The translations under genes were made by a program, and so were the position numbers. This document shows, one piece after another, positions 18,301-64,000 of a DNA stretch of 64,000 nt; position 1 is the stretch's first letter; every line of letters begins with the position of its first letter. Origin of the DNA: Morinoia aosen (taxonomy: Eukaryota; Arthropoda; Malacostraca; Amphipoda; Talitridae); assembly GCA_030386875.1 (NCBI GenBank), contig CM059564.1:40320075-40384074 (forward strand), read 5' to 3'. The notes beneath the pieces are model-generated. The model saw nothing but the letters and a program-made list of their open reading frames with translations, did not search any database and was not told the origin of the DNA.

Positions 18301-21300
18301 ACAAATTATCGAAAAACGTTGCCACCGGATCTCAAGACAAGACAATTCGCTACCTAGAAAACCTTTTTCTAGTTCTGTAACTTCAAAATTGTAGGCGATG
18401 GACACTTCTCCCACAACACCTTTTTCAGGTTTTTTTAATCATATTTTTTACAAGTTTATGAAAAAAACTCGAGTTTAAAAAAATGCCGCATCATTTGACA
18501 TCTATTGTGAAAATCTCATATCCGTCGAGAACCGACGGACTTATGGTTTCCCCCAACCGTGTCCTTAAATGATACCCTAAATGACATAACTCCTATAGAA
18601 CCTCCCAGAATATGACGAAAACTCGCATAAAAAAAATCATCTTTCGAAAGGCAGTTATGCCGATAAATACAGAGTTTGTATTTATCGCAGGATACGACCG
18701 CGGTAAAAGAATAATCAAATCCTGATACTGAATGCTCAATGAAGTCAGTAGAAGTAACTTTAAAAAAATATATAGACATAAAAATGTAGACAAAAAGGTA
18801 TAGACAATAAATGTAGATAAGCAATGCGAACAAAAATTTTACGACTTCTAGGTTATGTACTAGCTACTTAAGCAGAAATATTAAAATATTGAACGATACA
18901 ATGACTTGCGTACCTTCATATCGTTGGAAGAGGTCCACCATGTAGGTCGTCCATTGTTTCATTTGATTGAACACTGGAAAAAGATGCACGTTCTAATTAG
19001 AATAGAGCATTTACTTAAACTAGAAGAGCGTTCACCCAAATTAAAGTACAGTTTTCACCAAAATCAAAATATAGTTTTCCCCTACATCAAAATATAGTTT
19101 TCCCCTACATCAAAATATAGTTTTCCCCTACATCAAAATATAGTTTTCCCCTACATCAAAATATAGTTTTCCCCTACATCAAAATATAGTTTTCCCCTAC
19201 ATCAAAATATAGTTTTCCCCTACATCAAAATATAGTTTTCCCCTACATCAAAATATAGTTTTCCCCTACATCAAAATATAGTTTTCCCCTACATCAAAAT
19301 ATAGTTTTCCCCTACATCAAAATATAGTTTTCCCCTACATCAAAATATAGTTTTCCCCTACATCAAAATATAGTTTTCCCCTACATCAGAATAAAGTTTT
19401 CCCCTACATCAGAATAAAGTTTTCCCCTACATCAAAATATAGTTTTCCCCTACATCAAAATATAGTTTTCCCCTACATCAAAATATAGTTTTCCCCTACA
19501 TCAAAATATAGTTTTCCCCTACATCAAAATATAGTTTTCCCCTACATCAAAATATAGTTTTCCCCTACATCAGAATATAGTTTTCCCCTACATCAGAATA
19601 TAGTTTTCCCCTACATCAGAATATAGTTTTCCCCTACATCAGAATATAGTTTTCCCCTACATCAGAATATAGTTTTCCCCTACATCAGAATATAGTTTTC
19701 CCCTACATCAGAATATAGTTTTCCCCTACATCAAAATATAGTTTTCCCCTACATCAAAATATAGTTTTCCCCTACATCAAAATATAGTTTTCCCCTACAT
19801 CAAAATATAGTTTTCCCCTACATCAAAATATAGTTTTCCCCTACATCAAAATATAGTTTTCCCCTACATCAAAATATAGTTTTCCCCTACATCAAAATAT
19901 AGTTTTCCCCTACATCAAAATATAGTTTTCCCCTACATCAAAATATAGTTTTCCCCTACATCAAAATATAGTTTTCCCCTACATCAAAATATAGTTTTCC
20001 CCTACATCAAAATATAGTTTTCCCCTACATCAAAATATAGTTTTCCCCTACATCAAAATATAGTTTTCCCCTACATCAAAATATAGTTTTCCCCTACATC
20101 AAAATATAGTTTTCCCCTACATCAAAATATAGTTTTCCCCTACATCAAAATATAGTTTTCCCCTACATCAAAATATAGTTTTCCCCTACATCAAAATATA
20201 GTTTTCCCCTACATCAAAATATAGTTTTCCCCTACATCAAAATATAGTTTTCCCCTACATCAAAATATAGTTTTCCCCTACATCAAAATATAGTTTTCCC
20301 CTACATCAAAATATAGTTTTCCCCTACATCAAAATATAGTTTTCCCCTAAATCAAAATATAGTTTTCCCCTAAATCAAAATATAGTTTTCCCCTAAATCA
20401 AAATATAGTTTTCCCCTACATCAAAATATAGTTTTCCCCTACATCAAAATATAGTTTTCCCCTACATCAAAATATAGTTTTCCCCTACATCAAAATATAG
20501 TTTTCCCCTACATCAAAATATAGTTTTCCCCTACATCAAAATATAGTTTTCCCCTACATCAAAATATTGTTTTCCCCTACATCAAAATATTGTTTTCCCC
20601 TACATCAAAATATAGTTTTCCCCTACATCAAAATATAGTTTTCCCCTACATCAAAATATAGTTTTCCCCTACATCAAAATATAGTTTTCCCCTACATCAA
20701 AATATAGTTTTCCCCTACATCAAAATATAGTTTTCCCCTACATCAAAATATAGTTTTCCCCTACATCAAAATATAGTTTTCCCCTACATCAAAATATAGT
20801 TTTCCCCTACATCAATATATAGTTTTACCCTACATCAAAATATAGTTTTCCCCTACATCACAATATAGTTTTCCCCTACATCAAAATATAGTTTTCCCCT
20901 ACATCAAAATATAGTTTTCCCCTACATCAAAATATAGTTTTCCCCTACATCAAAATATAGTTTTCCCCTACATCAAAATATAGTTTTCCCCTACATCAAA
21001 ATATAGTTTTCCCCTAAATCAAAATATAGTTTTCCCCTAAATCAAAATATAGTTTTCCCCTAAATCAAAATATAGTTTTCCCCTAAATTAAAATAAAGTT
21101 TTCCCCTAAATTAAAATAAAGTTTTCCACACAACTTTTACGAAATAAACTAAAACTTCATTTTCTGTAATTAAAGGTTTCATGCATTTTTTGCACTATAT
21201 TACGATAGTGATTTCAAATGCCTTTGTTCTACGTATATTTCCTATTTGCTGACAAATGCTGCCCATTAAGAATTTCACTGAGTAGGTCTACAAAAATAAG

Positions 21301-30527: not shown

Positions 30528-33500
30528 GTAAATTTAACTGACATAACATCCTTATTAGAAAACTTCACTTATTCCCTAGCAGACCTTTATTCCCCTTAAA
30601 ACGCTACTTTCATCACAATTGAAACAAACTTGGACAAAGGTGTACGTCATGACTTACGGTGTTGTGAATGCCGAAAAATGCAGCTAGTCTCAGCGCAGAG
30701 GCCCAAAGCCCGGCGTCAATCAGGACTTCAATTAAGGCTTGCGCGAAGAAGTCTTCTCTCAGAATAACTTTGTTCTCTAGAGCGGTATGATATAGCGTAT
30801 ATATGCCCAGGAAGTTTTCCTTGTTGATGGATTTAGGAAGGGAGCGCAAAATTACCGAACTGAACACAGCTCTGCGGGCTTCTCGAGTTTCCCATGGCCA
30901 GTGTGAAGCGATATTTTTCGGAGGATTCAAGCTTATATGATTATTCGAGATTCCTTTCTCAACACACTTTGTGAAGGAACGCCACAGCCTTTTTTCCAGG
31001 TCTTCATTCTTATCTTCAGCAGCGTTCATGCACACCATATATCGAACAAACATGTACTCAGATGACCAGCTTTTTGGAGACGAGAATTTAGAGCACAGGA
31101 ACTCGAAAATGGAACTTCGCCACAATTTAGCGACGGCGCACTTCGTCCAGAAGTTGTGAAACTCTTCGTACAATTCGCTACTTCGATCCCACGCAAAACA
31201 TTCATCTGACTTATCTGCTAAACTGATTATATCCAACATAAAATTCACATAAAACGACGAACTCAGAAAACTTATGATATCCAAGCGTTCTTTAGCCCAG
31301 AGCTCGTCGAGCAGGCACTCGAAACGCAGTGAAGTATAGCGAGAAACTTGTAGCATCCGCACAATTTCTTCGTAGTTGATGTCATATCCAGCTTCACGAA
31401 CAGCTTTCATTTTCGACCAGTGATAAAAACTGTTGTGCGCAGTTCCCTCCAGGTAACTCAACAGAACTTTATTTTTCTCCCAATTCAATTTTCGGGTCAT
31501 AGCTGCAGCAATGACATAGTTCTTAATTTGGAGAATCACTTCGCAGACGCTTGTAAAGGATTTTGAATTTAAAGACTGTTCTAGTTTTCTTAGTGCATGT
31601 AGGACTAGCATTAAATTGCGGGTTTTGTCTTTACAAAGAATTTTCAGCTCAGCCATGAAGCGAGCCAAGGGATGTTTGTAAAACAGGTTTCCTAGAGCTT
31701 TAACGAGAAGATCGAACTGATCTGCACTAAAGAAGATGTAGAGAGAATAACCGACAAAGCAGAGACACTTGTTACGTTCAGTAGGTATGAATGGTAGCGC
31801 GTCGATGACGTTCGACTCCTTCGCAAACAATTGCAGATATAGGACAAGAGCTTGACCTGTAGCGGGAGAGTCGTTTGTGATGAAAAATTTCAAAATTATT
31901 AGAGTATTTTCTAACTGGAACTCATAATAAGAGCGATAAGCTATCCCTAGAAAGGACGAGTCGTTAAATTCACCCTCAACGAGCGGAGGGCCTTGCTCAT
32001 CAGAAACAATCAATGTCGATGGGAATGTTTGGGTCATCACGGGCTGCTCAGGTTGGCTGCTGGATACCCATACGGGGACCAGTTGGACGAAAGGTCGCGC
32101 AGTCTGCACCAAAGATGGTGTCGACTCGAACGCGGCGACTTGGGCTGACGGTAATTCAGCGCGAGGATGATGCACTTGATGCGACTGCGGTGTCACGTTG
32201 GGATCTCCTGTTGATGAAAACGGAAGCGTGGGTTGTAAATCTTTTACTATTGGTATATGTGCGTTGCTGCTGCTACCTGAAACTGATATGCTGCTGATAT
32301 GAGGGGTCGGCAGTAGAGGTACCTTGGCGTTGGAGTTCCCGACTTTGGGCAACGATTCCTCTGAGTTAAAATCTCCAAAAGAATACAATGTTGTCTTGGG
32401 GCTCGAATCTGCGGCAGGTGGTGCGGTCTTCTCGGGGCTCGAATCTGCGGCAGGTGGTGCGGTCTTCTCGGGGCTCGAATCTGCGGCAGGTGGTGCGGTC
32501 TTCTCGGGGCTCGAATCTGCGGCAGGTGGTGCGGTCTTCTCGGGGCTCGAATCTGCGGCAGGTGGTGCGGTCTTCTCGGGGCTCGAATCTGCGGCAGGTG
32601 GTGCGGTCTTCTCGGGGCTCGAATCTGCGGCAGGTGGTGCGGTCTTCTCGGGGCTCGAATCTGCGGCAGGTGGTGCGGTCTTCTCGGGGCTCGAATCTGC
32701 GGCAGGTGGTGCGGTCTTCTCGAGGCTCGAATCTGCGGCAGGTGGTGCGGCCTTCTCGGGGCTCGAATCTGCGGCAGAAGGTGCGGCCTTCTCGGGGCTC
32801 GAATCTGCGGCAGAAGGTGCGGCCTTCTCGGGGCTCGAATCTGCGGCAGAAGGTGCGGCCTTCTCGGGGCTCGAATCTGCGGCAGAAGGTGCGGCCTTCT
32901 CGGGGCTCAAATCTGCGGCAGGTGGTGCGGTCTTCTTGGGGCTCAAATCTGCGGCAGGTGGTGCGGTCTTCTTGGGGCTCGAATCTGCGGCAGGTGGTGC
33001 GGTCTTCTTGGGGCTCGAATCTGCAGCAGGTGGTGCGGTCTTCTTGGGGCTCGAATCTGCGGCAGGTGGTGTGGTCTTTTTGGGGCTCGAATCTGCGGCA
33101 GGTGGTACGGTCTTCTTGGTGCTCGACTCTCTAACAGCATGCAAAGGTGGCTCGGGTGGCATCTGGCTCCTTTTCTTGCTCGCTTGCTCTCGGATCTTGA
33201 ATAAATCTGTCCACAGTTGTGCAGGCACCACAGGTTTTGGAATATCCTTGGCACGTGGCAGCCCAAACATAGAATCGTAAGAAGCATTACTCACACCTTC
33301 AGTCTCGGATGCAAACCGTGAAGTTTTCCTGGTACCTTGACGAGTGGATGCAGAAATACCCGCATTTTTCCTACCTCTGGCAGTGATTTTAAAAGCCCTA
33401 AGTTTCCTCAAACTTTTGGAAGTGGGCATGTACGGCCCTACATTGCTCATACTTCTAGTAGAGGGCGTAGGAGGGGAGGAAGCGCGTCTACATCTTCTAG

Positions 33501-36500
33501 GAGTATGCGAGTTACTGTGGTCCTGGCTGTATACATTAGGGTCTCCCATAAAAGGTGGAATGTTCTTGAAACTGGAATTCTCTCCAGGAAAAGGAGAGCA
33601 CCTTAAGTTCCAGCCCTTGCCAGTGGCAGGAGATGCAGACCCCTTGCCGCTCGAGCCCTTGCCAGTGGCAGGAGATGCAGACCCCTTGCCGCTCGAGCCC
33701 TTGCCAGTGGCAGGAGATGCAGACCCCTTGCCGCTCGAGCCCTTGCCAGTGGCAGGAGATGCAGACCCCTTGCCGCTCGAGCCCTTGCCAGTGGCAGGAG
33801 ATGCAGACCCCTTGCCGCTCGGGCCCGTGGCTGTGGCAAGAGATGGAGACTCCCCGACCCTCGGGCCCGTGGCTGTGGCAAGAGATGGAGACTCCCCGAC
33901 CCTCGGGCCCGTGGCTGTGGCAAGAGATGGAGACTCCCCGACCCTCGGGCCCGTGGCTGTGGCAAGAGATGGAGACTCCCCGACCCTCGGGCCCGTGGCT
34001 GTGGCAAGAGATGGAGACTCCCCGACCCTCGGGCCCGTGGCTGTGGCAAGAGATGGAGACTCCCCGACCCTCGGGCCCGTGGCTGTGGCAAGAGATGGAG
34101 ACTCCCCGACCCTCGGGCCCGTGCCTGTGGCAAGAGATGGAGACTCCCCGACCCTCGGGCCCGTGCCTGTGGCAAGAGATGGAGACTCCCCGACCCTCGG
34201 GCCCGTGCCTGTGGCAAGAGATGGAGACTCCCCGACCCTCGGGCCCGTGCCTGTGGCAAGAGATGGAGACTCCCCGACCCTCGGGCCCGTGCCTGTGGCA
34301 AGAGATGGAGACTCCCCGACCCTCGGGCCCGTGGCTGTGGCAAGAGATGGAGACTCCCCGACCCTCGGGCCCGTGGCTGTGGCAAGAGATGGAGACTCCC
34401 CGACCCTCGGGCCCGTGGCTGTGGCAAGAGATGGAGACTCCCCGACCCTCGGGCCCGTGGCTGTGGCAAAAAATGGAGACTCCCCGACCCTCGGGCCCGT
34501 GGCTGTGGCTGTGGCAAGAGATGGAGACTCCCCGACCCTCGGGCCCGTGGCTGTGGCTGTGGCTGTGGCAAGAGATGGAGACTCCCCGACCCTCGGGCCC
34601 GTGGCTGTGGCTGTGGCTGTGGCAAGAGATGGAGACTCCCCGACCCTCGGGCCCGTGGCTGTGGCAAGAGATGGAGACTCCCCGACCCTCGGGCCCGTGG
34701 CTGTGGCAATAGATGGAGACTCCCCGACCCTCGGGCCCGTTGCAGTGGCAGGAGATGGAGACTCCCCGACCCTCGGGCCCGTTGCAGTGGCAGGAGATGG
34801 AGACTCTTCGACGCTTGGGCTCGTGACAGAACCTGGAGACTCCAGTTTACTTATTTGCTCCGTGTTGGTGGATGATGGTGTGACAGGCTGCGCCTCGCGT
34901 GCAAGCACCTGTTCTCTCAAAGATCCAGTAGCACTGGTTGGTTGAGCTGAACTGTCGCTAGAATCCGAGTTCGAATTGGTTGCGTTTGCTTCGTTGTCTG
35001 CCGCATTCCTAATAGAAATTGAGTTATCGATGACAGGTGGTTGGTCTAGTCCATGACTCCAAGAGAAAACATTTTGAAGTTCCCTTACTTTATGGATGAA
35101 GTAGGTGCGTGCATCTTCAGTGTCAGCTTTTGATGGCTGGTTTTTGGGTAGGGAATTTTGATTGGCTAAATGAATTGGCTTGTATATCATGTCGGGGATG
35201 TACTCTGTGTCGTTGTTATAGCTTTTATAGGCATTCCTGCAGCAGAATAAGAAGTACTGAAGAAGCAAACTCGCTGCATCGTCTCGTTCGATCATCTTTC
35301 CAAGGATGACTTTAATGTGATGTTGCGCAAGGCATTCATCACCGTGGTGGGTGAGAGACGCACACTGCAAGTCATCAAGGAAAAAATGTTAAGTTTTATC
35401 CATTTTTCATATCGTGTATCTCAACTGAACCAGTTTGATTGAAATATGTACGTTAAGCTGCACTGAACTTTAATCCGTCCTGTTTAAACTTGATAGTCGC
35501 CATCAACCGCCCTCATACTGAAATTTAACGTTTATCGGAATGAATACCCAAACTTAATAAAAACATTACGCGAGTTGAAACATTCATTACGTGACGCAAA
35601 CGCAAGCAGCCTCGACAAACTAATACATCACCTATTCAAGATGACGTAAACAAAGCCCTCTGAACTATTAATGGGCTGCTCATAAGTTTACAAGCGCTAA
35701 CTATTGGCTGAGGAAATTTGCAGGATGTGGCGAACCAAGCGAGTGGTTTTGAGGGTACACTTTCGGAGTAATTAGGGGTGGAGGCAGATGCACGAGGTTC
35801 TTGTTCTGCTCAACCTAAAGCTCCATTTCAGCAGCCTACATAGTTTGAATGGAAGAGCATCATGGCTATGACGAGCGGGCGTATTTCGAAAACAATCTGT
35901 GATCGTGAAGCAAAGAGCTTCTCGGTGGCGGTTCAACGTTGCGCGTGTTGAGCTCGTTCCTCAGTTAACACAATTCGCTCCTGGGTTAGATAACGCTCGG
36001 GAACATTTTTTCAACATCTGTTAGTCGTATTGGATTTCCTAAATTTTGAACGAGTTTTAGGCGCCGATTTCAAATTTGAAATTGGTGTTTCCTAACAAGC
36101 TTGTATGAAATTAGAGATTCATGAAATTGTCCACATGTGAGCTGGCGTTAACCGTATGTAAGCATTTACGCGTCCATGTAAGTAGATAGCTTCTAAAATT
36201 TGAATCAATCTTTTTCAGTTCAAACATGGCTTCCAAAGAGACATAAAAGAAACAACCCTGATGCCTTCCGCTACATCCGTGGATATATCCTCGTTCGTCA
36301 AGCATGCCCACAAGCCATATTTTGATGCTCATCTTTGTGATCAAGACAAAAAATGGGCTCCGCTGCCCCAATTGTGAGGAAATTCTTCGAGACTGGACCA
36401 ATGGAGAACGCAAAGGTCTACCTTTCAAAGTGCCAATGATTTGGCGCAAACCCACCAGCCATGTAACCGACATATTTCTGCATTATGAACACAACGGTTA

Positions 36501-39500
36501 TTGGGAGGAAAACCGACAAAAGATTACGTATCCCAACATTCCCTCCGCTATTTGGCCTGCTCCGTACTCTGAAGAAATTCCTGTTCCAGTTTTCAAAGGC
36601 TTTTCTTCCTGAAACGATAAAGACAGATGGACATGATACAAGCAAACAAGACAGTTGTGACAGTGAATTGTCGAAAGTGTTCACAATTGGAGAACTGTTC
36701 TTCAGACATTTTATCTTTCCCCGTCCCCAAGCCTCTTCCCCAGGTTGAAGTGAATGATTTAGTGCGGAATTTAGGCTTCAAATATAGAGCAGCAGAGCTT
36801 TCGACATCAATATTACAAGGCAAGAATCTTTTTGATCACCGTAGAAGTATCATTTCAGAAGGCGTGACCAGCTTTCTATGATCTTCGTTTTAAAACACGG
36901 TTGGTTTACTGCCATGGCATCCCAGGGCTTCTGAATGAACTGGGTGTACCTTGCATACTTTAGTCCTGCTAAATGGCGACTTTTTAGGAAGTTCAAACAG
37001 CAGTCAAAAGTGTGATTTTTACATAATGGCAGTCTTTATGGAGCAGTACCTGTAAGTCCCTCGGTGCATTTGTGGGAAGAATGATGAGAATGTTCATGAA
37101 CTTATTCAGGTATCATGAGCACAATTTAATCATTTGTGTAGACTTCAAGATGGTCAATTTTCTATTTGAACAAGAGAGGTTTCATCAAGTTTCCGTGTTT
37201 TCTCTGTATACGGAACAGCCACGTATAAGACAGACATTGTCCAGAAGGACTAATCTAGTCATGACACTCTTGAAACAGGAATGCCAAATGTCATTCAAGA
37301 CCTAATTGTAAGCAGCGATATCATCTTTCCTTCTCTTCACATCAAATTAGGTTTAATGAAGAAATTTCTCAAGGTACTAGAAACCGAAGGTGAACGATTC
37401 CAGCACACATCACATCTTTTCCAGGGTTATCATTTGGAAGATAAAAGCAGGCGTGTTTGATGGCCCACAAATTCGAACTTTAACTCGTGATGATCGATTT
37501 CTTGCTAAGATGACCGCTTTGGAAAAGGAAGCATTGTTATCCATGAGGCAGTCGTACAGAACTTCCTTGGAAACAATACGGCGGAAAACAATAGTGAACA
37601 GTCAACAGAATGCTCCTCGCCTCTCGTAACCTCGGGTGCAACATGAGCATCAAGCTTCAACTTTTGAAGAGCCACCTTGTTAACTTTCCTAACAAACACG
37701 GGGTTCTGAGTGTCGAATAAGGAGAACAATTCCACCCAGACCTAAAGGTCATTGAAAAACGCTACCAATGGCACCGAGACAAACGTATGATGACCGACTA
37801 CTGCACGAGTATTAAACAAGGTGGCCCAGATGAGGTGTACAAACGCAAATGTCTGACTGAATATAATACACGAACAAATTGATACGCTGTCACCTGATAA
37901 GCTGTAAAGATTGAGGTTTTTTAAGAAAAGGTATCAGAAAAAGCGACAACCAACAATGGACAAGATTATATGACTTCAAATTTAAAATGGACGCTAAAAT
38001 GGGAAGTCAATGATACAGAACGAGACTGTGCGCTCACGACGCAGGCCAGCGCCGAGCGCTGCGTGCTCACCACGCAGGCCAGCGCCGAGCGCTGCGTGCT
38101 CACCACGCAGGCCAGCGCCGAGCGCTGCGTGCTCACCACGCAGGCCAGCGCCGAGCGCTGCGTGCTCACCACGCAGGCCAGCGCCGAGCGCTGCGTGCTC
38201 ACCACGCAGGCCAGCGCCGAGCGCTGCGTGCTCACCACGCAGGCCAGCGCCGAGCGCTGCGTGCTCACCACGCAGGCCAGCGCCGAGCGCTGCGTGCTCA
38301 CCACGCAGGCCAGCGCCGAGCGCTGCGTGCTCACCACGCAGGCCAGCGCCGCGTGCTCACCACGCAGGCCAGCGCCGCGTGCTCACCACGCAGGCCAGCG
38401 CCGCGTGCTCACCACGCAGGCCAGCGCCGCGTGCTCACCACGCAGGCCAGCGCCGCGTGCTCACCACGCAGGCCAGCGCCGCGTGCTCACCACGCAGGCC
38501 AGCGCCGCGTGCTCACCACGCAGGCCAGCGCCGCGTGCTCACCACGCAGGCCAGCGCCGCGTGCTCACCACGCAGGCCAGCGCCGCGTGCTCACCACGCA
38601 GGCCAGCGCCGCGTGCTCACCACGCAGGCCAGCGCCGCGTGCTCACCACGCAGGCCAGCGCCGCGTGCTCACCACGCAGGCCAGCGCCGCGTGCTCACCA
38701 CGCAGGCCAGCGCCGCGTGCTCACCACGCAGGCCAGCGCCGCGTGCTCACCACGCAGGCCAGCGCCGCGTGCTCACCACGCAGGCCAGCGCCGCGTGCTC
38801 ACCACGCAGGCCAGCGCCGCGTGCTCACCACGCAGGCCAGCGCTGCGTGCTCACCACGCAGGCCAGCGCTGCGTGCTCACCACGCAGGCCAGCGCTGCGT
38901 GCTCACCACGCAGGCCAGCGCTGCGTGCTCACCACGCAGGCCAGCGCTGAGCGCAGCGTGCTCACCACGCAGGCCAGCGCTGAGCGCAGCGTGCTCACCA
39001 CGCAGGCCAGCGCTGAGCGCAGCGTGCTCACCACGCAGGCCAGCGCTGAGCGCAGCGTGCTCACCACGCAGGCCAGCGCTGAGCGCAGCGTGCTCACCAC
39101 GCAGGCCAGCGCTGAGCGCAGCGTGCTCACCACGCAGGCCAGCGCTGAGCGCAGCGTGCTCACCACGCAGGCCAGCGCTGAGCGCAGCGTGCTCACCACG
39201 CAGGCCAGCGCTGAGCGCAGCGTGCTCACCACGCAGGCCAGCGCTGAGCGCAGCGTGCTCACCACGCAGGCCAGCGCTGAGCGCAGCGTGCTCACCACGC
39301 AGGCCAGCGCTGAGCGCAGCGTGCTCACCACGCAGGCCAGCGCTGAGCGCAGCGTGCTCACCACGCAGGCCAGCGCTGAGCGCAGCGTGCTCACCACGCA
39401 GGCCAGCGCTGAGCGCAGCGTGCTCACCACGCAGGCCAGCGCTGAGCGCAGCGTGCTCACCACGCAGGCCAGCGCTGAGCGCAGCGTGCTCACCACGCAG

Positions 39501-42500
39501 GCCAGCGCTGAGCGCAGCGTGCTCACCACGCAGGCCAGCGCTGAGCGCAGCGTGCTCACCACGCAGGCCAGCGCTGAGCGCAGCGTGCTCACCACGCAGG
39601 CCAGCGCTGAGCGCAGCGTGCTCACCACGCAGGCCAGCGCTGAGCGCAGCGTGCTCACCACGCAGGCCAGCGCCGAGCGCAGCGTGCTCACCACGCAGGC
39701 CAGCGCCGAGCGCAGCGTGCTCACCACGCAGGCCAGCGCCGAGCGCAGCGTGCTCACCACGCAGGCCAGCGCCGAGCGCAGCGTGCTCACCACGCAGGCC
39801 AGCGCTGAGCGCTGCGTGCTCACCACGCAGGCCAGCGCCGAGCGCAGCGTGCTCACCACGCAGGCCAGCGCCGAGCGCAGCGTGCTCACCACGCAGGCCA
39901 GCGCCGAGCGCAGCGTGCTCACCACGCAGGCCAGCGCCGAGCGCAGCGTGCTCACCACGCAGGCCAGCGCCGATCGCAGCGTGCTCACCACGCAGGCCAG
40001 CGCCGATCGCAGCGTGCTCACCACGCAGGCCAGCGCCGATCGCAGCGTGCTCACCACGCAGGCCAGCGCCGATCGCAGCGTGCTCACCACGCAGGCCAGC
40101 GCCGATCGCAGCGTGCTCACCACGCAGGCCAGCGCCGATCGCAGCGTGCTCACCACGCAGGCCAGCGCCGATCGCAGCGTGCTCACCACGCAGGCCAGCG
40201 CTGATCGCAGCGTGCTCACCACGCAGGCCAGCGCTGATCGCAGCGTGCTCACCACGCAGGCAAGCGCTAGCGCCGAGCGCAGTGTGCTCACCATGAAGGC
40301 GAGCGCGAGCGCCGAGCGCAGTGTGCTCACCATGTAGGCGAGCGCGAGCGCCGAGCGCAGTGTGCTCACCATGTAGGCGAGCGCGAGCGCCGAGCGCAGT
40401 GTGCTCACCATGTAGGCGAGCGCGAGCGCCGAGCGCAGTGTGCTCACCATGTAGGCGAGCGCGAGCGCCGAGCGCAGTGTGCTCACCATGTAGGCGAGCG
40501 CGAGCGCCGAGCGCAGTGTGCTCACCATGTAGGCGAGCGCGAGCGCCGAGCGCAGTGTGCTCACCATGTAGGCGAGCGCGAGCGCCGAGCGCAGTGTGCT
40601 CACCATGTAGGCGAGCGTGAGCGCCGAGCGCAGTGTGCTTACCATGTAGGCGAGCGCGAGCGCCGAGCGCAGTGTGCTCACCATGTAGGCGAGCGCGAGC
40701 GCCGAGCGCAGTGTGCTCACCATGTAGGCGAGCGCGAGCGCCGAGCGCAGTTTGGTGCAGTCGTGTCCGGTGAGCATGAGGAGCGCAACGCAGCTGCTGC
40801 ACACACTCCTGTTCGGCCACGCCGCCAGCCCCAGCTTGTACACACCACGTGACCACGCAGCTCGACTGCCGAGACACAGAGATACACACATGGAACCAAG
40901 TATGTCTGTCCATTGTAATGGATTTGCGGATTATTCGTAACAGACGATAGAAGATAAATTAGATTGTTATTTTTAGTCTGCTTAACCGCTGCATAATGAA
41001 GCGTATCTGAGACGGAAAGAAGGAAGGCAACATTCCGTATGGAGTTGAGGTAACGCGGAATTGATGCAGAAAGGGCATAGAAATAGTAAGTTGGGAAAGA
41101 AGTTCATGAAACATTAAGAAAGTTGAAGAAGGAAGTAGTAAGTGCTGAAAAATAAGACAGATGTGAACTGAGAGAAAAGACGGAACATTACAAAAATATT
41201 TCATTCCAATAAAAAGGCATACCTTACTCAGCTCGGGCCCTCTCATTGCCCCCCTGGGAGCGATAATTCCCATAGATACAGTAGTTGGAACCCCCTGAGG
41301 GGAACGGACAATAATCTCAAATAGGTTTGTAAGCCTACGAATAATCGGGCTTGTTGGTAAAACCCAAAGCGAGATTCAAGTTCGGATCAGCTTTTTTGGG
41401 ATGTTCTAGGTTAAATTTGACGTCAAACCACGTAGATTGTTTTAGTTGACGGAACAGCATTCGTTATTTCCGAGTTGTAGGATCACAAAATTTCCTTTTG
41501 AATCCACTCATTCATCGAGGATCAAGTTACAGGATCTGAAATCAATTCAATTAACCTTGAACAGTATTAGAGTTTCCCCAAGAGAGGCAGGAAGAGAGCA
41601 TTAAGCCTATCCACGAGGTGTCTACTCCCAATCATGCGCAAAAAACTTCAAAGCTAAAAAGAAATACCGAACAAGATAAAAGTTGATGAAAGTCGTAGAT
41701 GCTAGAATATGCATCGTAGTGAACTGGAAATAAATGGTTACGCAACGAAACTAATGAAATATTCTAATACATTCATAGCAAGATTTATTTTCAGATCAGA
41801 ACACTAAATCTTTCAACGTAGACTATTAATTCCTATAGGTCAGGATTTCTCAACCGGGGGTGCATGTACCCCTAGAGACACATTTAACATACTTGTGTTA
41901 AAATGAACAGTATATATTTACACACAACCGTATAATTATATGCAATTAATAACCATAAAGTGTATTTTTTAACTTTCTTAAACTTGTAACTGTGCTGGGA
42001 GCACATGAAGATACACCGTCAAGCCAAGAGGGTACACGACAAGAGAAAGGTTGAGAAGCCCGGCTATGTAACAGCAAATCAGCCCGAAAGGATCGTGTAC
42101 CGTACAACTTTGACTGCAGCAACTAAATGTGAAGTTCAACACCAAACTCAAATTTAATTTGAGTTAACTATTTTGGAAATACCAAACATGAACTGGAACG
42201 TGCCTTCATTCAGCTTTGATTAAATATTTATGAAAATTGAATATGTGACTCAAGATCAGTCAACAGCATTATGAAAATAACCTCCATATAATACCGATGG
42301 CGCACGTCGCAGTCAAAGTGTTAAAACAGAGTCTCGACAGAATGCCTTAGAAGGCGTTGAACTTATCCGGGCTCTTTGACAAATATTTAAATACTTTTAG
42401 TCTAAAAGTATTCTTAAGCAACATTTCAAACGTATAAGCGGGTGTAAATAAATCGTTGAATTTGCTCAAATTCAAGAACTTAGGGCAATCACCTTACTGG

Positions 42501-45500
42501 GGTTAATTTCGACTCCATGAAATCGTGTGAATCTTCCACTTCTGACTAAGCTCTCTTGCTATAATTACCCTTTTCAGTCATGATGAACATGATGCATCCC
42601 GAGTATACACGTCAGATCTAAACACAGATCACTAAAATCTGAAATTTTCGATCACATACATATTCACATATTACTTATTGCGACCTTATTTCTTCGAGTT
42701 TTATGCCTCTGTTCGTATTTTATTCAAGAAATTCACAAGTTTAACCAACTGACCATCCAGGGCACAGCACCCCTAGTCTATAGAAGACCAAAAGGGCACA
42801 GCACCCCTAGTCTATAGAAGACCAAAAGGGCACAGCACCCCTAGTCTATAGAAGACCAAAAGGGCACAGCACCCCTAGTCTATAGAAGACCAAAAGGGCA
42901 CAGCACCCCTAGTCTATAGAAGACCAAAAGGGCACAGCACCCCTAGTCTATAGAAGACCAAAAGGGCACAGCACCCCTAGTCTGGAAGACCAAAAGGGCA
43001 CAGCACCCCTAGTCTGGAAGACCAAAAGGGCACAGCACCCCTAGTCTGGAAGACCAAAAGGGCACAGCACCCCTAGTCTGGAAGACCAAAAGGGCACAGC
43101 ACCCCTAGTCTGGAAGACCAAAAGGGCACAGCACCCCTAGTCTAGAAGACCAAAAGGGCACAGCACCCCTAGTCTAGAAGACCAGAGGGCACAGCACCAC
43201 TAGTCTAGAAGACCAGAGGGCACAGCACCACTAGTCTAGAAGACCAGAGGGCACAGCACCAATAGTCTAGAAGACCAGAGGGCACAGCACCAATAGTCTA
43301 GAAGACCAGAGGGCACAGCACCAATAGTCTAGAAGACCAGAGGGCACAGCACCAATAGTCTAGAAGACCAGAGGGCACAGCACCAATAGTCTAGAAGACC
43401 AGAGGGCACAGCACCAATAGTCTAGAAGACCAGAGGGCACAGCACCAATAGTCTAGAAGACCAGAGGGCACAGCACCAATAGTCTAGAAGACCAGAGGGC
43501 ACAGCACCAATAGTCTAGAAGACCAGAGGGCACAGCACCACTAGTCTAGAAGACCAGAGGGCACAGCACCACTAGTCTAGAAGACCAGAGGGCACAGCAC
43601 CACTAGTCTAGAAGACCAGAGGGCACAGCACCACTAGTCTAGAAGACCAGAGGGCACAGCACCACTAGTCTAGAAGACCAGAGGGCACAGCACCACTAGT
43701 CTAGAAGACCAGAGGGCACAGCACCACTAGTCTAGAAGACCAGAGGGCACAGCACCACTAGTCTAGAAGACCAGAGGGCACAGCACCACTAGTCTAGAAG
43801 ACCAGAGGGCACAGCACCACTAGTCTAGAAGACCAGAGGGCACAGCACCACTAGTCTAGAAGACCAGAGGGCACAGCACCACTAGTCTAGAAGACCAGAG
43901 GGCACAGCACCACTAGTCTAGAAGACCAGAGGGCACAGCACCACTAGTCTAGAAGACCAGAGGGCACAGCACCACTAGTCTAGAAGACCAGAGGGCACAG
44001 CACCACTAGTCTAGAAGACCAGAGGGCACAGCACCACTAGTCTAGAAGACCAGAGGGCACAGCACCAATAGTCTAGAAGACCAGAGGGCACAGCACCAAT
44101 AGTCTAGAAGACCAGAGGGCACAGCACCAATAGTCTAGAAGACCAGAGGGCACAGCACCACTAGTCTAGAAGACCAGAGGGCACAGCACCACTAGTCTAG
44201 AAGACCAGAGGGCACAGCACCACTAGTCTAGAAGACCAGAGGGCACAGCACCACTAGTCTAGAAGACCAGAGGGCACAGCACCACTAGTCTAGAAGACCA
44301 GAGGGCACAGCACCACTAGTCTAGAAGACCAGAGGGCACAGCACCACTAGTCTAGAAGACCAGAGGGCACAGCACCACTAGTCTAGAAGACCAGAGGGCA
44401 CAGCACCACTAGTCTAGAAGACCAGAGGGCACAGCACCACTAGTCTAGAAGACCAGAGGGCACAGCACCACTAGTCTAGAAGACCAGAGGGCACAGCACC
44501 ACTAGTCTAGAAGACTAGAGGGCACAGCACCACTAGTCTAGAAGACCAGAGGGCACAGCACCACTAGTCTAGAAGACCAGAGGGCACAGCACCACTAGTC
44601 TAGAAGACCAGAGGGCACAGCACCACTAGTCTAGAAGACCAGAGGGCACAGCACCACTAGTCTAGAAGACCAGAGGGCACAGCACCACTAGTCTAGAAGA
44701 CCAGAGGGCACAGCACCACTAGTCTAGAAGACCAGAGGGCACAGCACCACTAGTCTAGAAGACCAGAGGGCACAGCACCACTAGTCTAGAAGACCAGAGG
44801 GCACAGCACCACTAGTCTAGAAGACCAGAGGGCACAGCACCACTAGTCTAGAAGACCAGAGGGCACAGCACCACTAGTCTAGAAGACCAGAGGGCACAGC
44901 ACCACTAGTCTAGAAGACCAGAGGGCACAGCACCACTAGTCTAGAAGACCAGAGGGCACAGCACCACTAGTCTAGAAGACCAGAGGGCACAGCACCACTA
45001 GTCTAGAAGACCAGAGGGCACAGCACAAGTCACAAGTAGAAGAGTTCACTCACTCGAATGAGGCCGGTGCGAGGCTCACACAGGAAGCAGCGTACGCAAT
45101 CGCCAGTACGTGATCGAGGAAATCGGTCATCAAGAAGTCGGTGAAATCTTTGGCGAAGAAGAGGCCGTGAAAAATTGCGACTCCCCCTTCTCTGTTGAAC
45201 GTTCGAAAGGTAAGCGTTAGTGTTCAAGTTCATCATGAATGCCTCAATTTTGTTATTATGGACAATCAGATATAGCAATTCAGTGGGAAGTTTTAGCTAG
45301 CTCCTTTCCCCGTCTTTCTTATCTCCAGTGCTGAAAATTTCAACCGAGTAAGCGTGAATCATGCGGAAGTGTAGCTCAATTCCAATCAGACGTCCTCCAA
45401 GCATTCTCTTCTAGTATTCAAAGTACGATTATTTATAAGCTTTCAGTCATCCTGCTTAGGGTAAACTATTCAAAAAGAATTGTTTTTATTTTCTGTCCTA

Positions 45501-48500: not shown

Positions 48501-51500
48501 ACCGTACTGTGTTAATCAATAACTCGTATTAAAGCTATGCCAGACGTGTTATTCTGTTTCAGAAAACTGGAAAAGGTGCAGAGCAACGTCTAATTGGCTC
48601 TTGATCACTATGCGTTGTTCTAATAATAGTGTTCATACAGGATGCATAAGATTTATGCAACGGAAATGCTTATCCAGCACGCAGTGGACATGACGGTTAT
48701 GTGTAAAAATTCATCGTCCCCTCTATATTACTTACGAAGGCGAGCCATGACACCGAAAACTGACATCAATTCTGTCGAATGGCTGTCGAACTCCATCAGT
48801 TCTTTAATGGAGTATTTCATGAGACATCGAAGGGGTTGTGGACAATCCCAGACCGTAAACAGATGTCCCATCCAGCTCCTAGAGAAACGGATGTTGAATG
48901 TGGCACAATTCGAAGAACTCAGGAATAACCGAACATTCTTTTTCGGCTAGACAAGCTTTAGCTTTCAATATATCGAAATAATATTAGACTGCAGCAAATT
49001 AACTTTGAGCCCAAGTCTACTTTTCGATCTAGTATTGGGCTTAAATTTTCATTGTTTTGATCGAATTTGAAGGACAAGAAGAAATGGTTTTTATAAAAGC
49101 CGAGGTAACATATACCTCACAACTTTGGAAGTTAACCAACGCGCAGAAAGCGCAAATCGAACCGTAAAAACTGATGCTAAGAAATGGTGAAAAGTGCTAT
49201 GCTTTTGAATGATAGTAGCGGGTCAATTGTGTGATATATTTTCAACCTTCGAAGTCTGGTGGCTCAGCTCTAATTAAAAAATTCTCAAAATTCCCAAAAT
49301 TCAGCACATGAATATACATAGCTTAACCTAAGGGGGTCACCTGCTAGAGTAATCTAAGTTGGCCGTATTTGTTTTCGATTGATAGAAGAGCAATGTTTGC
49401 CGCCTCTCTAATCACAAGAAGAGTGTTCCAATGAGAAGATGGATGGAAGCACTATTTAAGATACTGTTAAGGGAATGCAAAAACTGAGCATTAAGGGCAT
49501 TCCCACGAAAGTTCTTGAAACAAGGAAATGTCCAAATTTAGTGGAACGCACCTTTCTTACAAGACTTGTTCATTCCACCTTACGCACATCTTCAAGACTA
49601 TTTGTACTTTCTCCAGGTGGTTTATATTTATAAAAAAGCGCTACTTATCTCAGATATCCGTAGATGCATTTTGACGGATAGAAAATATTACCGCGCCTCT
49701 ACAAGTAAGGCCCTTGACAACTGGAAATAACAATTCTCTAAAATTCGATGTCATAAACGACGCGAACTTATTAGTCTTCGTAATTCACATACCACGCAGA
49801 TTTAAAAAAAATATAACTAGGGCTTTCTTCGAAATATTGCACGGAAAGTCTATACTTAGCATACGCGTATAGTTACAACGCCTGAAGTACTAAATCGTTT
49901 TTTTATTTCTCACTATACTGGAGTGAAAATCAACACGCTTTTAAACTTTCGCAATAAGAAGCAGGCAGTGCAAGATATCGTCCGGGATCGTAGGAAAAGT
50001 GCAAAACAGACTCACCTTTCGTTAGGCTGAGGAATTTTATAGTCCACTCGAATGTATGCGTGGATCAAGAGCGTCACTGTATTGTACTCCCTTTCGTCGA
50101 TGGCGTTCCAACGACTCAAGAGCTGGCGACACAAGCACACAGAGAATAGGTATTTGCTGTTGTAGAATATTTCCTTCACCTCGTTCAAATAAATCTTCCC
50201 AATAGTCTCAGCCTTATCAGCTATGAAGAGTGAGTTTTTAAGAGTGGAAAATCCTTCATAATACGCGAAGAGCGCCGCCACAGCATCCAGTTTGCTGCGA
50301 ATAGTCGCGGGGTGCCATTCTTTGAGCACCTGAAGTAGAAAATGACTTGGAGATTCTATGTCAAAATCGCCAGAATCCGTGTCATCCACTGAACCATCTT
50401 GACGGACTTTGTTTCTTGACATCTGCTTTTTCTCTTTTAGTACGCCGAATTTCCTCAGCTGCTTACGGCGTTCTCTGAAGCTTTCTATTAGTTCGGATAA
50501 TTTTCGAATCTCGATGCACTTGTTGCTTCGGACAATATTAGCGTACCATTCGAGCCTTGAAATGAATTTCGAACAGCAGTCTTCGATGTTCGCTATAAAT
50601 AGTCTCATCATATCAGCCTGGTATTGGGCCTTCAACTTTGCGTTTCTTTCGTTATAATTCACTTTTTTGAATAAAGCTGGACGTCTTTCGGTTTTAAAAG
50701 AATTTTCCAAGTCAGAATATAGTTTTTTCACTGACCAGCTTCGAAGAGGCGAGGATATACGTGCTTGTTTGAAAATATTTTGAACGTTCGAGACCAAATC
50801 CAGGAACTGAATTGCATTTTTTTGAATGAGCAACCAATTTCCAGACACGTCCTCATCGTGGCACGAGTAAACCATGACTGAAAACAAAAATTGAAAATAA
50901 AGTTGAAAATAGAAAAGTAGTAAGAAAAATAGTAAAAGGAGAAAATACAAAAAAAATAAAAACTCGCTACATAGAAACTAAAATCAGAATTCCAAACGAT
51001 ATCAGCTACGCCGCACACTCTTAAATATCCACAATTTTGCACCATTAACAGTGAATTTAAGCATTTTATTCTTTGATGAAAATTTTAAAACCTCTTCTTG
51101 AGACCAGAAAGTACGGTTAAACGTTCGTCTTGAATTTTGATATTCAACTAAAAATTGCAAATGACTAAGTAAAACAAATACACTGAACGTCGTCCACAAC
51201 GGCATCTATATGATTCTTCACATGCTATGCATGTGTCTGAAATCTGTAACTCGCCATCTGTCTCGTCCGAAATCTGTAACTCGCCATCTGTCTCGTCCGA
51301 AATCTGTAACTCGCCATCTGTCTCGTCCGAAATCTGTAACTCGCCATCTGTCTCGTCCGAAATCTGTAACTCGCCATCTGTCTCGTCCGAAATCTGTAAC
51401 TCGCCATCTGTCTCGTCCGAAATCTGTAACTCGCCATCTGTCTCGTCCGAAATCTGTAACTCGCCATCTGTCTCGTCCGAAATCTGTAACTCGCCATCTG

Positions 51501-54500
51501 TCTCGTCCGAAATCTGTAACTCGCCATCTGTCTCGTCCGAAATCTGTAACTCGCCATCTGTCTCGTCCGAAATCTGTAACTCGCCATCTGTCTCGTCCGA
51601 AATCTGTAACTCGCCATCTGTCTCGTCCGAAATCTGTAACTCGCCATCTGTCTCGTCCGAAATCTGTAACTCGCCATCTGTCTCGTCCGAAATCTGTAAC
51701 TCGCCATCTGTCTCGTCCGAAATCTGTAACTCGCCATCTGTCTCGTCCGAAATCTGTAACTCGCCATCTGTCTCGTCCGAAATCTGTAACTCGCCATCTG
51801 TCTCGTCCGAAATCTGTAACTCGCCATCTGTCTCGTCCGAAATCTGTAACTCGCCATCTGTCTCGTCCGAAATCTGTAACTCGCCATCTGTCTCGTCCGA
51901 AATCTGTAACTCGCCATCTGTCTCGTCCGAAATCTGTAACTCGCCATCTGTCTCGTCCGAAATCTGTAACTCGCCATCTGTCTCGTCCGAAATCTGTAAC
52001 TCGCCATCTGTCTCGTCCGAAATCTGTAACTCGCCATCTGTCTCGTCCGAAATCTGTAACTCGCCATCTGTCTCGTCCGAAATCTGTAACTCGCCATCTG
52101 TCTCGTCCGAAATCTGTAACTCGCCATCTGTCTCGTCCGAAATCTGTAACTCGCCATCTGTCTCGTCCGAAATCTGTAACTCGCCATCTGTCTCGTCCGA
52201 AATCTGTAACTCGCCATCTGTCTCGTCCGAAATCTGTAACTCGCCATCTGTCTCGTCCGAAATCTGTAACTCGCCATCTGTCTCGTCCGAAATCTGTAAC
52301 TCGCCATCTGTCTCGTCCGAAATCTGTAACTCGCCATCTGTCTCGTCCGAAATCTGTAACTCGCCATCTGTCTCGTCCGAAATCTGTAACTCGCCATCTG
52401 TCTCGTCCGAAATCTGTAACTCGCCATCTGTCTCGTCCGAAATCTGTAACTCGCCATCTGTCTCGTCCGAAATCTGTAACTCGCCATCTGTCTCGTCCGA
52501 AATCTGTAACTCGCCATCTGTCTCGTCCGAAATCTGTAACTCGCCATCTGTCTCGTCCGAAATCTGTAACTCGCCATCTGTCTCGTCCGAAATCTGTAAC
52601 TCGCCATCTGTCTCGTCCGAAATCTGTAACTCGCCATCTGTCTCGTCCGAAATCTGTAACTCGCAATCTGTCTCGTCCGAAATCTGTAACTCGCCACCTG
52701 TCTCGACCGAAATCTGTAACTCGCCACCTGTCTCGTCCGAAATCTGTAACTCGCCACCTGTCTCGTCCGAAATCTGTAACTCACCATTGGTCGTGTGGAT
52801 GAGGAGGTCCACGCAAGTTTCAACATCTCGGTCCTTCAGAGCAGCGTTCATTTTCTGTCGCACCTCCGATACGGAAAGACGATTGGTCTGCATCCAAGAT
52901 ACGGCTGTGCCCTGCAATGCGAATTTCTTCATAAGTTTTGTAGGTAGCATGCACGTGTATGAAGGGATCTATTTGTATCAGATTCTATTGCATGTATATA
53001 AAGGTGAATTTTCACATGCGAAATTTTGTTCGCGATGCGTTCACATATCTGCAGGAATAATGATTATCTTTTCGTATTGTGATAACGTTAAGAAGATTAT
53101 CCTAGCAAAACGTAGAAACTTTTAACCGAGTTATCAATGAAATTTTAAGCGAATGTTTAATAACTTGAATAGCTGTTATTCCTTCAAGCGATGTGAAACT
53201 GAAAATAACTGAATATAATTCAAAAATTCCTGGAAAAAAATTCACCAACGTTATTTTGATGCGTATGAAAAACAATTTTTTTTAAGGCCATGTCGTGTCA
53301 AGTTCTTACCGACGCTTTGGAACTTGTGATTGATCATCTCTGCAAAATACGTCACAACGCAAATGCCGCAGAAATCATTCGCGGTGCCGATTTTTGATTT
53401 ATTATTGGTCACTGATGTATTAGCGCATTGACAAATACACTAATTTTCGAGATAATGCCATTGATAAATACAGCAAATCTGTCAATTCATCCGAAATCAT
53501 CGTACCTTGGCCTCCACCCTGCACAAATATATGCCATTGAAGAGGAAGTAGTTGTACGAATTCCGCTGCGGTGGGCCCTCCACGACCAGAAATTCTTGGT
53601 TCCATTCGAAAGTGAACACGAATTCTCGAAGCGTTGGCTTCAGCAGAATGAAAATTGCTTGTTTTTCTGGAGGTAAAGGTTTGGAGTTAGGATTGATAAG
53701 GAAGTTTTAGCCTCTTTGCCTTAACATAGATGTTCAATGAAAAGAAGCAAGGTCCCATTTATTATAGGGGAATGTGGAATCTACGCACAAGCTGCTTATA
53801 AAAAGTAAGCTAAGAAAGAAGGTCATGTAACAAGATAAAAGTTGAAGAAGAAAGTAGTAGGTGCTGAGAAACAAGACGGCACTGAACCGAAAAAAGATGG
53901 TATTCACCAAAACAAAAAACCTCTTCTATGACCAAAAAAGGCCTACCTAACCTTTACCTCGGGACCTCACATTATCCCCTGGAGCGCTTGGAGTTGATAA
54001 GTTTGAGTTTCCTCAACTATGAGAATTGGCGATTTTTTTTTCAAGGATAACTTTCGAATGAGGTGCTCTAAATACGATCAAGTATTTTGTTTATAACGCT
54101 TGCGAAATTAAACAATCAAACGGGAACGCTAGTGGTAAAGTTTATGTCACAGATTCTATTTCAAACAGACAAAGTTTGTCCTAGATTTTCAAACATGACA
54201 GTCAAGTCAAGTCAAGTCAAGTCAAGTGCTTAAGGAGAATTACTTGGCAAAAAATACCCTCTGCAACCGTCAAATACGACCATTCCATATGAATATTGAA
54301 GAAGAATAATCAAGCAGAACCAAATTAAAGTTGGTATGAATGTACAACCATTTTCGAAAACTTACTTTCGCTTACCTTTTTCAGAATTTTGAACCTTGAA
54401 CACAAGCCGGTTGTCCAGGGCAGCTGTAGCTATAATTTTAGCTTCTCCTGGTAACGGTTTACCCATTTTTGCCGGTGGAATGACAGCAGCGGTCACGTGT

Positions 54501-62695: not shown

Positions 62696-62799
62696 AAACT
62701 GACGCTAATAGACGCGGCACACACTACAATGGATGACGTCATCTCCTTAGACCAATCACAGGCTAACACGAAGAAAGAGGGATACCCGTAAGGATAATC
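62696..62799 (-). repeat. DIRS left inverted terminal repeat
   Basis: The 104-bp segment is the reverse complement of 57437-57537 with few differences. It contains the shared blocks GGTATCCCTCTTTCTTCGTG and TGGTCTAAGGAGATGACGTC on the element strand. Its outer end is GGATAATC, and AATC is shared with the target. Confidence 0.93.
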
Positions 62800-64000
62800 A
62801 GCGTTTTACGGAGGAGGGAAGGTGCAAAATCAGCGTTTTACGGAAGTGGGAAGGTGCAAAATCAGCGTTTTACGGAAGTGGGAATGTGCAAAATCAGCGT
62901 TTTACGGAAGTGGGAATGTGCAAAATCAGCGTTTTACGGAAGTGGGAATGTGCAAAATCAGCGTTTTACGGAAGTGGGAAGGTGCAAAACCAGCGTTTTA
63001 CGGAAGTGGGAAGGTGCAAAACCAGCGTTTTACGGAAGTGGGAAGGTGCAAAACCAGCGTTTTACGGAAGTGGGAAGGTGCAAAACCAGCGTTTTACGGA
63101 AGTGGGAAGGTGCAAAACCAGCGTTTTACGGAAGTGGGAAGGTGCAAAACCAGCGTTTTACGGAAGTGGGAAGGTGCAAAACCAGCGTTTTACGGAAGTG
63201 GGAAGGTGCAAAACCAGCGGTTTTACGGAAGTGGGAAGGTGCAAAACCAGCGGTTTTACGGAAGTGGGAAGGTGCAAAATCAGCGTTTTACGGAAGTGGG
63301 AAGGTGCAAAATCAGCGTTTTACGGAAGTGGGAAGGTGCAAAATCAGCGTTTTACGGAAGTGGGAAGGTGCAAAATCAGCGTTTTACGGAAGTGGGAAGG
63401 TGCAAAATCAGCGTTTTACGGAAGTGGGAAGGTGCAAAATCAGCGTTTTACGGAAGTGGGAAGGTGCAAAATCAGCGTTTTACGGAAGTGGGAAGGTGCA
63501 AATTCAGCGTTTTACCGAAGTGGGAAGGTGCAAAATCAGCGTTTTACCGAAGTGGGAAGGTGCAAAATCAGCGTTTTACGGAAGTGGGAAGGTGCAAAAT
63601 CAGCGTTTTACGGAAGTGGGAAGGTGCAAAATCAGCGTTTTACGGAAGTGGGAAGGTGCAAAATCAGCGTTTTACGGAAGTGGGAAGGTGCAAAATCAGC
63701 GTTTTACGGAAGTGGGAAGGTGCAAAATCAGCGTTTTACGGAAGTGGGAATGTGCAAAATCAGCGTTTTACGGAAGTGGGAATGTGCAAAATCAGCGTTT
63801 TACGGAAGTGGGAATGTGCAAAATCAGCGTTTTACGGAAGTGGGAATGTGCAAAATCAGCGTTTTACGGAAGTGGGAATGTGCAAAATCAGCGTTTTACG
63901 GAAGTGGGAATGTGCAAAATCAGCGTTTTACGGAAGTGGGAATGTGCAAAATCAGCGTTTTACGGAAGTGGGAATGTGCAAAATCAGCGTTTTACGGAAG
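62800..64000. repeat. Intronic minisatellite, 32-bp unit, ~37 copies to the window edge
   Basis: The unit contains AATCAGCGTTTTACGGAAG, TGGGAAGGTGCAAA. Variants form blocks (TCAGCG versus CCAGCG, GGTGC versus TGTGC, ACCGAAG). The array continues past the right edge; its other end is at 57346-57388 across the DIRS insertion, ~55 bp from the A2 acceptor. Confidence 0.97.

Follow-up and report, generated by a model that had tools for sequence, protein, structure and literature searches.

A large gene of the amphipod Morinoia aosen carries an exon, A15, whose end and 5′ splice site form the repeat unit of a long minisatellite. The exon and its array lie on the minus strand of a 64,000-nucleotide stretch of contig CM059564.1, here called the window. 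Each of the five A15-like exons found in the genome adjoins its own donor-spanning array, and A15 is far more alike between the gene copies than any other exon mapped against the window copy. The array is probably a hypermutable minisatellite that spans the splice donor, is mostly intronic, is spliced from its first donor or donors, and is accompanied by interlocus gene conversion of A15.

Exon A15 and its donor-spanning array

Tandem Repeats Finder places the minisatellite at 38032-40741 of the window, with 84.8 copies and a score of 3029. Counted from the end of A15, the minus strand holds 85 GTRAGC donors, with the first GT at 40720, which confirms the claim of an earlier sequence-only reading that an exon end and its 5′ splice site are repeated about 85 times. 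In the window, as in the other four copies, the first unit of the array contains the donor of A15 itself, and GTRAGC occurs once per unit in the window. The exact motif GTGAGCAC is present 83 times in the minus-strand array. GGTRAGC occurs 84 times in the array, against a mean of 0.45 and a largest value of 4 in 200 mononucleotide shuffles of it.

On the minus strand, the units run in the order 12 x 39, 40 x 33, 23 x 26, and 9 x 33 bp, followed by a terminal donor. The 33- and 39-bp units preserve phase, as that reading had stated. Its further claim that any donor within these blocks would keep the frame open is true of 53 of the 85 donors (40720 to 38932) but fails beyond the first 26-bp unit, which puts the frame out of phase and leads to a stop; the 26-bp block breaks the frame for the other 32 donors. 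Open frames of up to 775 amino acids also run across the array on the plus strand.

The gene is one of five large tandem copies, spaced 41-55 kb from one another, that lie at C9:40242000-40478400, on the same contig as the window. From right to left, the copies are named A3, A5, W (the window copy), A4, and A2. Exon order is collinear among copies for the mappable exons; several exons are undetected in A3 and A5, and A2 is truncated at the edge of the analysed DNA. Genome searches with A15 DNA found at least five places, searches with A15 protein at least the same five, and searches with A17 also at least five.

The model of A15 as an exon is well supported by comparison of the five tandem copies, which agree on its acceptor and phases. 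The sequence preceding the exon reads ...CTCGGCAG, and the acceptor is AG|T in all five copies, in each of which the frame is kept. The phase-2 GT donor of A14 and the initial T of A15 yield a completed codon. The exon after A15 starts AG|TGYGC in phase 0 in four of the five copies and ACAG|GTTGCA, also in phase 0, in copy A3. Because these phases agree across copies, a phase-0 donor after LAYM is expected. The sequence-only reading is also borne out in that the repeated unit contains the donor of the exon.

The exon’s own donor is ATG|GTGAGC in every copy, and the array donors are mostly GTG|GTGAGC, with GTG|GTGGGC in 45 of 46 donors of copy A4. On a vertebrate-like weight matrix, these three forms score 4.82, 3.94, and 1.38, respectively. 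On the same matrix, a single W array donor, ATG|GTAAGC, scores 4.97, slightly above the exon’s donor. Counting the exon’s own donor, the ATG|GTGAGC form occurs 11 times in W, 5 times in A5, and 10 times in A2.

The five arrays range from 511 to 2710 bp and differ in composition. The A3 array has 26 donors, and its frame is open to the end. The A5 array has 15 donors and consists at its start of two 33-bp units and then a 26-bp unit, with the frame stopping after 79 amino acids. In W, the frame is lost after the 33-bp block and a stop follows after 653 amino acids. The A4 array has GTGAGC only at the exon, and its frame ends four codons beyond the array, where a GTRAGC donor is absent. The A2 array has 23 donors, a 40-bp unit that shifts the phase of the last three, and a stop past the array after 319 amino acids. 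Among the 33-bp units, to which unit-type and synonymous counts were confined (39-, 26-, 40-, and 53-bp units were excluded), there are 22 distinct types, only one of which is common to two copies. This suggests that the arrays share an initial seed from which each copy expanded its own array anew. Synonymous changes make up 10 of 19 changes in these units versus 33% expected (p 0.085).

Apparent homogenisation of exon A15 among the copies

A15 nucleotide identity is 90-99% in all ten copy pairs. In A17, protein identity reaches 84% between A2 and A4 but is 23-50% in each of the nine remaining pairs. Outside A15, the copies are old, with A2-A4 as the one young pair. In the nine older pairs, A15 differs at 2-5 of 26-30 fourfold sites versus 55-82% in A14, A17, and X11 (Fisher p 1.8e-4 to 3.1e-12). 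The young pair has differences at 3 of 29 fourfold sites in A15 versus 36 of 242 in A14, A17, and X11 combined (p 0.78). Without X11, the test gives p 0.43 for the young pair and p 6.1e-4 to 1.7e-11 for the older pairs. Because A15 diverges like other exons in the young pair, no special constraint is seen there. In every pair, the similarity falls away within about 12 nucleotides upstream of the exon.

The distribution of variants along A15 fits recent conversion over its array-proximal part. Nucleotides 25-144, on the array side, contain 10 variable columns, all of which are singletons (5 in A4, 4 in A5, and 1 in W). Nucleotides 1-24 contain 7 variable columns, three of which are two-against-three splits and one of which has three states. 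The difference in variable columns between the two parts gives p 0.009, although looser protein constraint at the 5′ end could also explain it. A2 and A3 are identical across nucleotides 25-144, yet they are 45% identical in A17 and X11. The GC content at third codon positions is 0.73-0.85 in A15, 0.55-0.73 in A14, and 0.45-0.48 in A17, and a high value in A15 would be expected from biased conversion. Interlocus gene conversion is recognised where old paralogues are near-identical at synonymous sites in one segment and diverged elsewhere, and the five copies show this pattern at A15.

Described systems and competing explanations

A minisatellite that spans a splice donor is a known kind of element. 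The human ABCA7 variable number tandem repeat in intron 18 has a 25-bp unit, present 23.7 times in the reference, and alleles of ~12 to 427 units, with the first GT of the repeat serving as the exon 18 donor (PMC5954066). Canonical splicing occurs together with an isoform that retains one unit through the donor of the next, exon 19 skipping rises with repeat length, and polymorphism and expression effects were measured (PMC5954066). As in the window array, the GT of the exon’s donor forms the first two bases of the unit and the array starts at the exon end. The ABCA7 unit of 25 bp shifts the frame when retained, whereas the window array is mostly of 39 and 33 bp and in frame; ABCA7 is one gene, whereas here there are five paralogues with the adjoining exon homogenised.

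Human IFI6 (6-16, G1P3) has a minisatellite whose unit is reportedly 12 nucleotides. Three mRNA species arise because two of its downstream repeat units also act as donors (PMC4526556), and Turri et al. 1995 is, by its title, an account of an IFI6 minisatellite that provides multiple splice donor sites. IFI6 resembles the window array in having multiple donors supplied by a minisatellite and differs in that the array here has longer units, 85 donors, and five paralogues. Paralogues in human segmental duplications contain minisatellites of ~30-bp units that alter exon-intron structure, some of them at exon-intron boundaries (PMC2812944). These are recent paralogues with ~4 units on average, and in the text consulted no donor is described as amplified tens of times. 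A published tandem duplication that spans an intron-exon boundary duplicates splice signals as here, but in a single event that made a new intron and not an array.

The window array has the donor within the unit, the period, and the copy number that mark the ABCA7 and IFI6 kind. The sequence-only reading had known of no described case of a donor tandemly amplified on such a scale; this does not stand, given the ABCA7 alleles as reported and IFI6 besides, and arrays larger than that of the window exist in ABCA7. The new finding is that each of the five copies found has a donor-spanning array next to a homogenised exon, while the other tested exons have diverged. No published case of paralogues all carrying a donor-spanning array was noticed in searches confined to open-licence papers, which is weak evidence of absence.

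It is hypothesized that the array originated by a short tandem duplication across the A15/intron junction. Most transcripts would be spliced from the first donor (LAYM|CAS...), leaving the array mainly intronic, and leakage to the next few donors would add 13- or 11-amino acid units in frame. The array may grow and shrink through slippage or unequal exchange, and it would be tolerated because each duplication recreates a donor and most units have a length divisible by three. It may also provoke recombination, leading to gene conversion of the adjoining A15 between tandem genes 41-55 kb apart.

Several points weigh against this account. The ten copy pairs are not independent, and the argument against constraint is carried by a single young pair with only 29 fourfold sites. 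Looser protein constraint could account for the concentration of A15 variants at the 5′ end, and the high third-position GC content of A15 could be ancestral. Use of the first donor is something we infer from sequence, and the donor scores come from a vertebrate-like matrix. Units that are mostly multiples of three, together with the slight synonymous excess, leave room for translated units. In addition, because unit types are private, conversion tracts would have to stop close to the exon, or turnover of the array would have to erase their traces afterwards.

Purifying selection on A15 at the nucleotide level, through splicing enhancers or an overlapping signal and without gene conversion, has a small but real chance of being the correct explanation. 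The abrupt loss of similarity upstream of the exon and its likeness relative to other exons are both compatible with such selection. However, the fourfold sites of A15 diverge like those of other exons between A2 and A4, with or without X11, and every variable column of nucleotides 25-144 is a singleton. A functional ladder of donors is unlikely; here, choice among dozens of in-frame donors would add LRSALALAYMVST or LRSALACVVST units and give many protein lengths per locus. The in-frame and open state of 53 of 85 donors favours it, as do the synonymous excess and the presence of an array in all five copies when other introns never have one in more than three. Against these stand the frame losses in A5 (after two units), W (mid-array), and A2 (near the far end), the GTGGGC form of 45 of the 46 donors of A4, and the retention of one unit in the sole array-donor isoform described in the available ABCA7 text. 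The earlier proposal of many protein lengths by donor choice is therefore possible but unsupported by sequence, and it is weakened because the exon donor is of the stronger form in all five copies, most donors within the arrays score lower, and the frame is lost in three of the five arrays. It is rather improbable that the array is a maintained two-way device, selected in all five copies, in which a conversion hotspot keeps A15 identical across a tandem family that is otherwise diverging and a phase-matched donor ladder allows every copy to produce several in-frame protein lengths.

A fully coding minisatellite, in which the entire array is exonic and the last donor is used, would resemble the repeats of the giant exon A16-A17, whose open frame holds arrays in all five copies. 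A frame open in phase through the whole array is found only in A3 and A4; stops lie inside the W and A5 arrays, the phase shifts in A2, and in A4 a stop lies four codons beyond the array without a GTRAGC donor, so that this explanation is very unlikely. An array collapsed or inflated in assembly is just as remote. The unit number is the one given by the assembly, which comprises 29 contigs and 1.99 Gb. That five loci each have an array, with blocks in order and unit types that are mostly private, argues against an artefact, as does the contiguity of the assembly. A hypermutable minisatellite spliced from its first donors, with conversion of A15, is the account that we retain.

Further repeats of the gene and implications

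The giant-exon open frame in the window runs from 30616 to 35388 (1591 amino acids) and spans two minisatellites (Table 1). The corresponding frames are 2054 amino acids in A2, 2066 in A4, 1671 in A5, and 1109 in A3, and the arrays within them have periods of 15 to 126 bp. Pfam searches of the gene pieces gave no match at the cut-off (best E-value 0.0064, to HIM1, in one of five members), and PDB searches of gene pieces gave none or E-values of at least 0.047. The gene family has no significant Pfam or PDB match for the searched exons and, by eye, perhaps contains beta-propeller and helical parts. A resemblance to APC1 or a beta-propeller, judged by eye, was unsupported beyond a WDR3 propeller match (E 0.033).

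Table 1. Features of the window, by position in the window
Feature	Position	Strand	Description
Exon A14	45054..45208 (start approximate)	-	Ends ..TTCGA|GTGAGT, phase 2; tblastn homology in 4/4 other copies, donor read
Exon A15	40721..40865, 145 nt	-	[D]RAAWSRGVYKLGLAAWPNRSVCSSCVALLMLTGHDCTKLRSALALAYM; AG acceptor in 5/5 copies; 5 genomic copies found
First splice donor of A15	40715..40720	-	ATG|GTGAGC, phase 0, proposed main donor; 5/5 copies; outscores common array donors (vertebrate-like matrix)
Array block 1	40253..40720	-	12 units x 39 bp, VSTLRSALALAYM type; GTAAGC in one unit
Array block 2	38933..40252	-	40 units x 33 bp, VSTLRSALACV type
Array block 3	38335..38932	-	23 units x 26 bp; frame-breaking
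Array block 4	38038..38334	-	9 units x 33 bp, VSTQRSALACV type
Terminal GTGAGCGC	at 38037	-	Closes array after block 4
Giant exon A16-A17	30646..35364 (3′ end approximate)	-	Starts AG|TGTGCGTCT, phase 0; putative single exon, from open frame
Minisatellite in giant-exon open frame	33613..34825	-	42 bp x 28
Minisatellite in giant-exon open frame	32394..33130	-	36 bp x 20
Intronic minisatellite	42759..45026	-	31 bp x 72; begins ~27 bp past mapped A14 end
Second exon-end array of window gene	51235..52787	-	30 bp x 52; begins at X10 exon end

Minisatellites (period 10-130, at least 3 copies) cover 19.9% of the window and 13.8% of the 264-kb cluster. In six 10-kb controls from the same contig the cover is 9.0%, nearly all in two of the six, and arrays of at least 400 bp also occur in two of the six, so that the window is only partly unusual for repeats. 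Telomere-type TTAGG arrays, a repeat associated with arthropods, are present in the genome. In the second exon-end array (ISDETDGELQ in frame), a candidate GC donor, ATG|GCGAGT, recurs in phase from unit to unit; GT donors are readable near the X10 end in paralogues. The other four copies have no array at the place of this one or of the intronic minisatellite beyond A14, and, apart from the intron after A15, arrays in any one intron were seen in at most three of the five copies.

Of 11 hand-listed intronic or intergenic arrays other than that of A15, four have their start no more than 100 bp from a mapped exon end (P 0.006 for uniform placement, post hoc, where unmapped exons may exist), and 0 of the 11 end within 100 bp of the next exon. 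Three arrays were omitted from this list, one without a mapped flank and two of 26-bp period and 203 bp each. Copy A4 has an intronic array at C9:40287608-40288606 that begins about 26-27 bp past a mapped exon end, and in the intron after X20 copy A4 too has an array, with a different unit. Further long minisatellites lie at 19043-21127 (23 bp x 91) and 62796-64000 (32 bp x 77, continuing past the window).

The A15 arrays extend donor-spanning minisatellites from human examples to an arthropod genome with five paralogous replicates. Because unit, phase, and donor strength vary naturally among the five copies, spliceosome choice among near-identical 5′ splice sites becomes testable. The five copies also make it testable whether a minisatellite drives gene conversion of the neighbouring exon.

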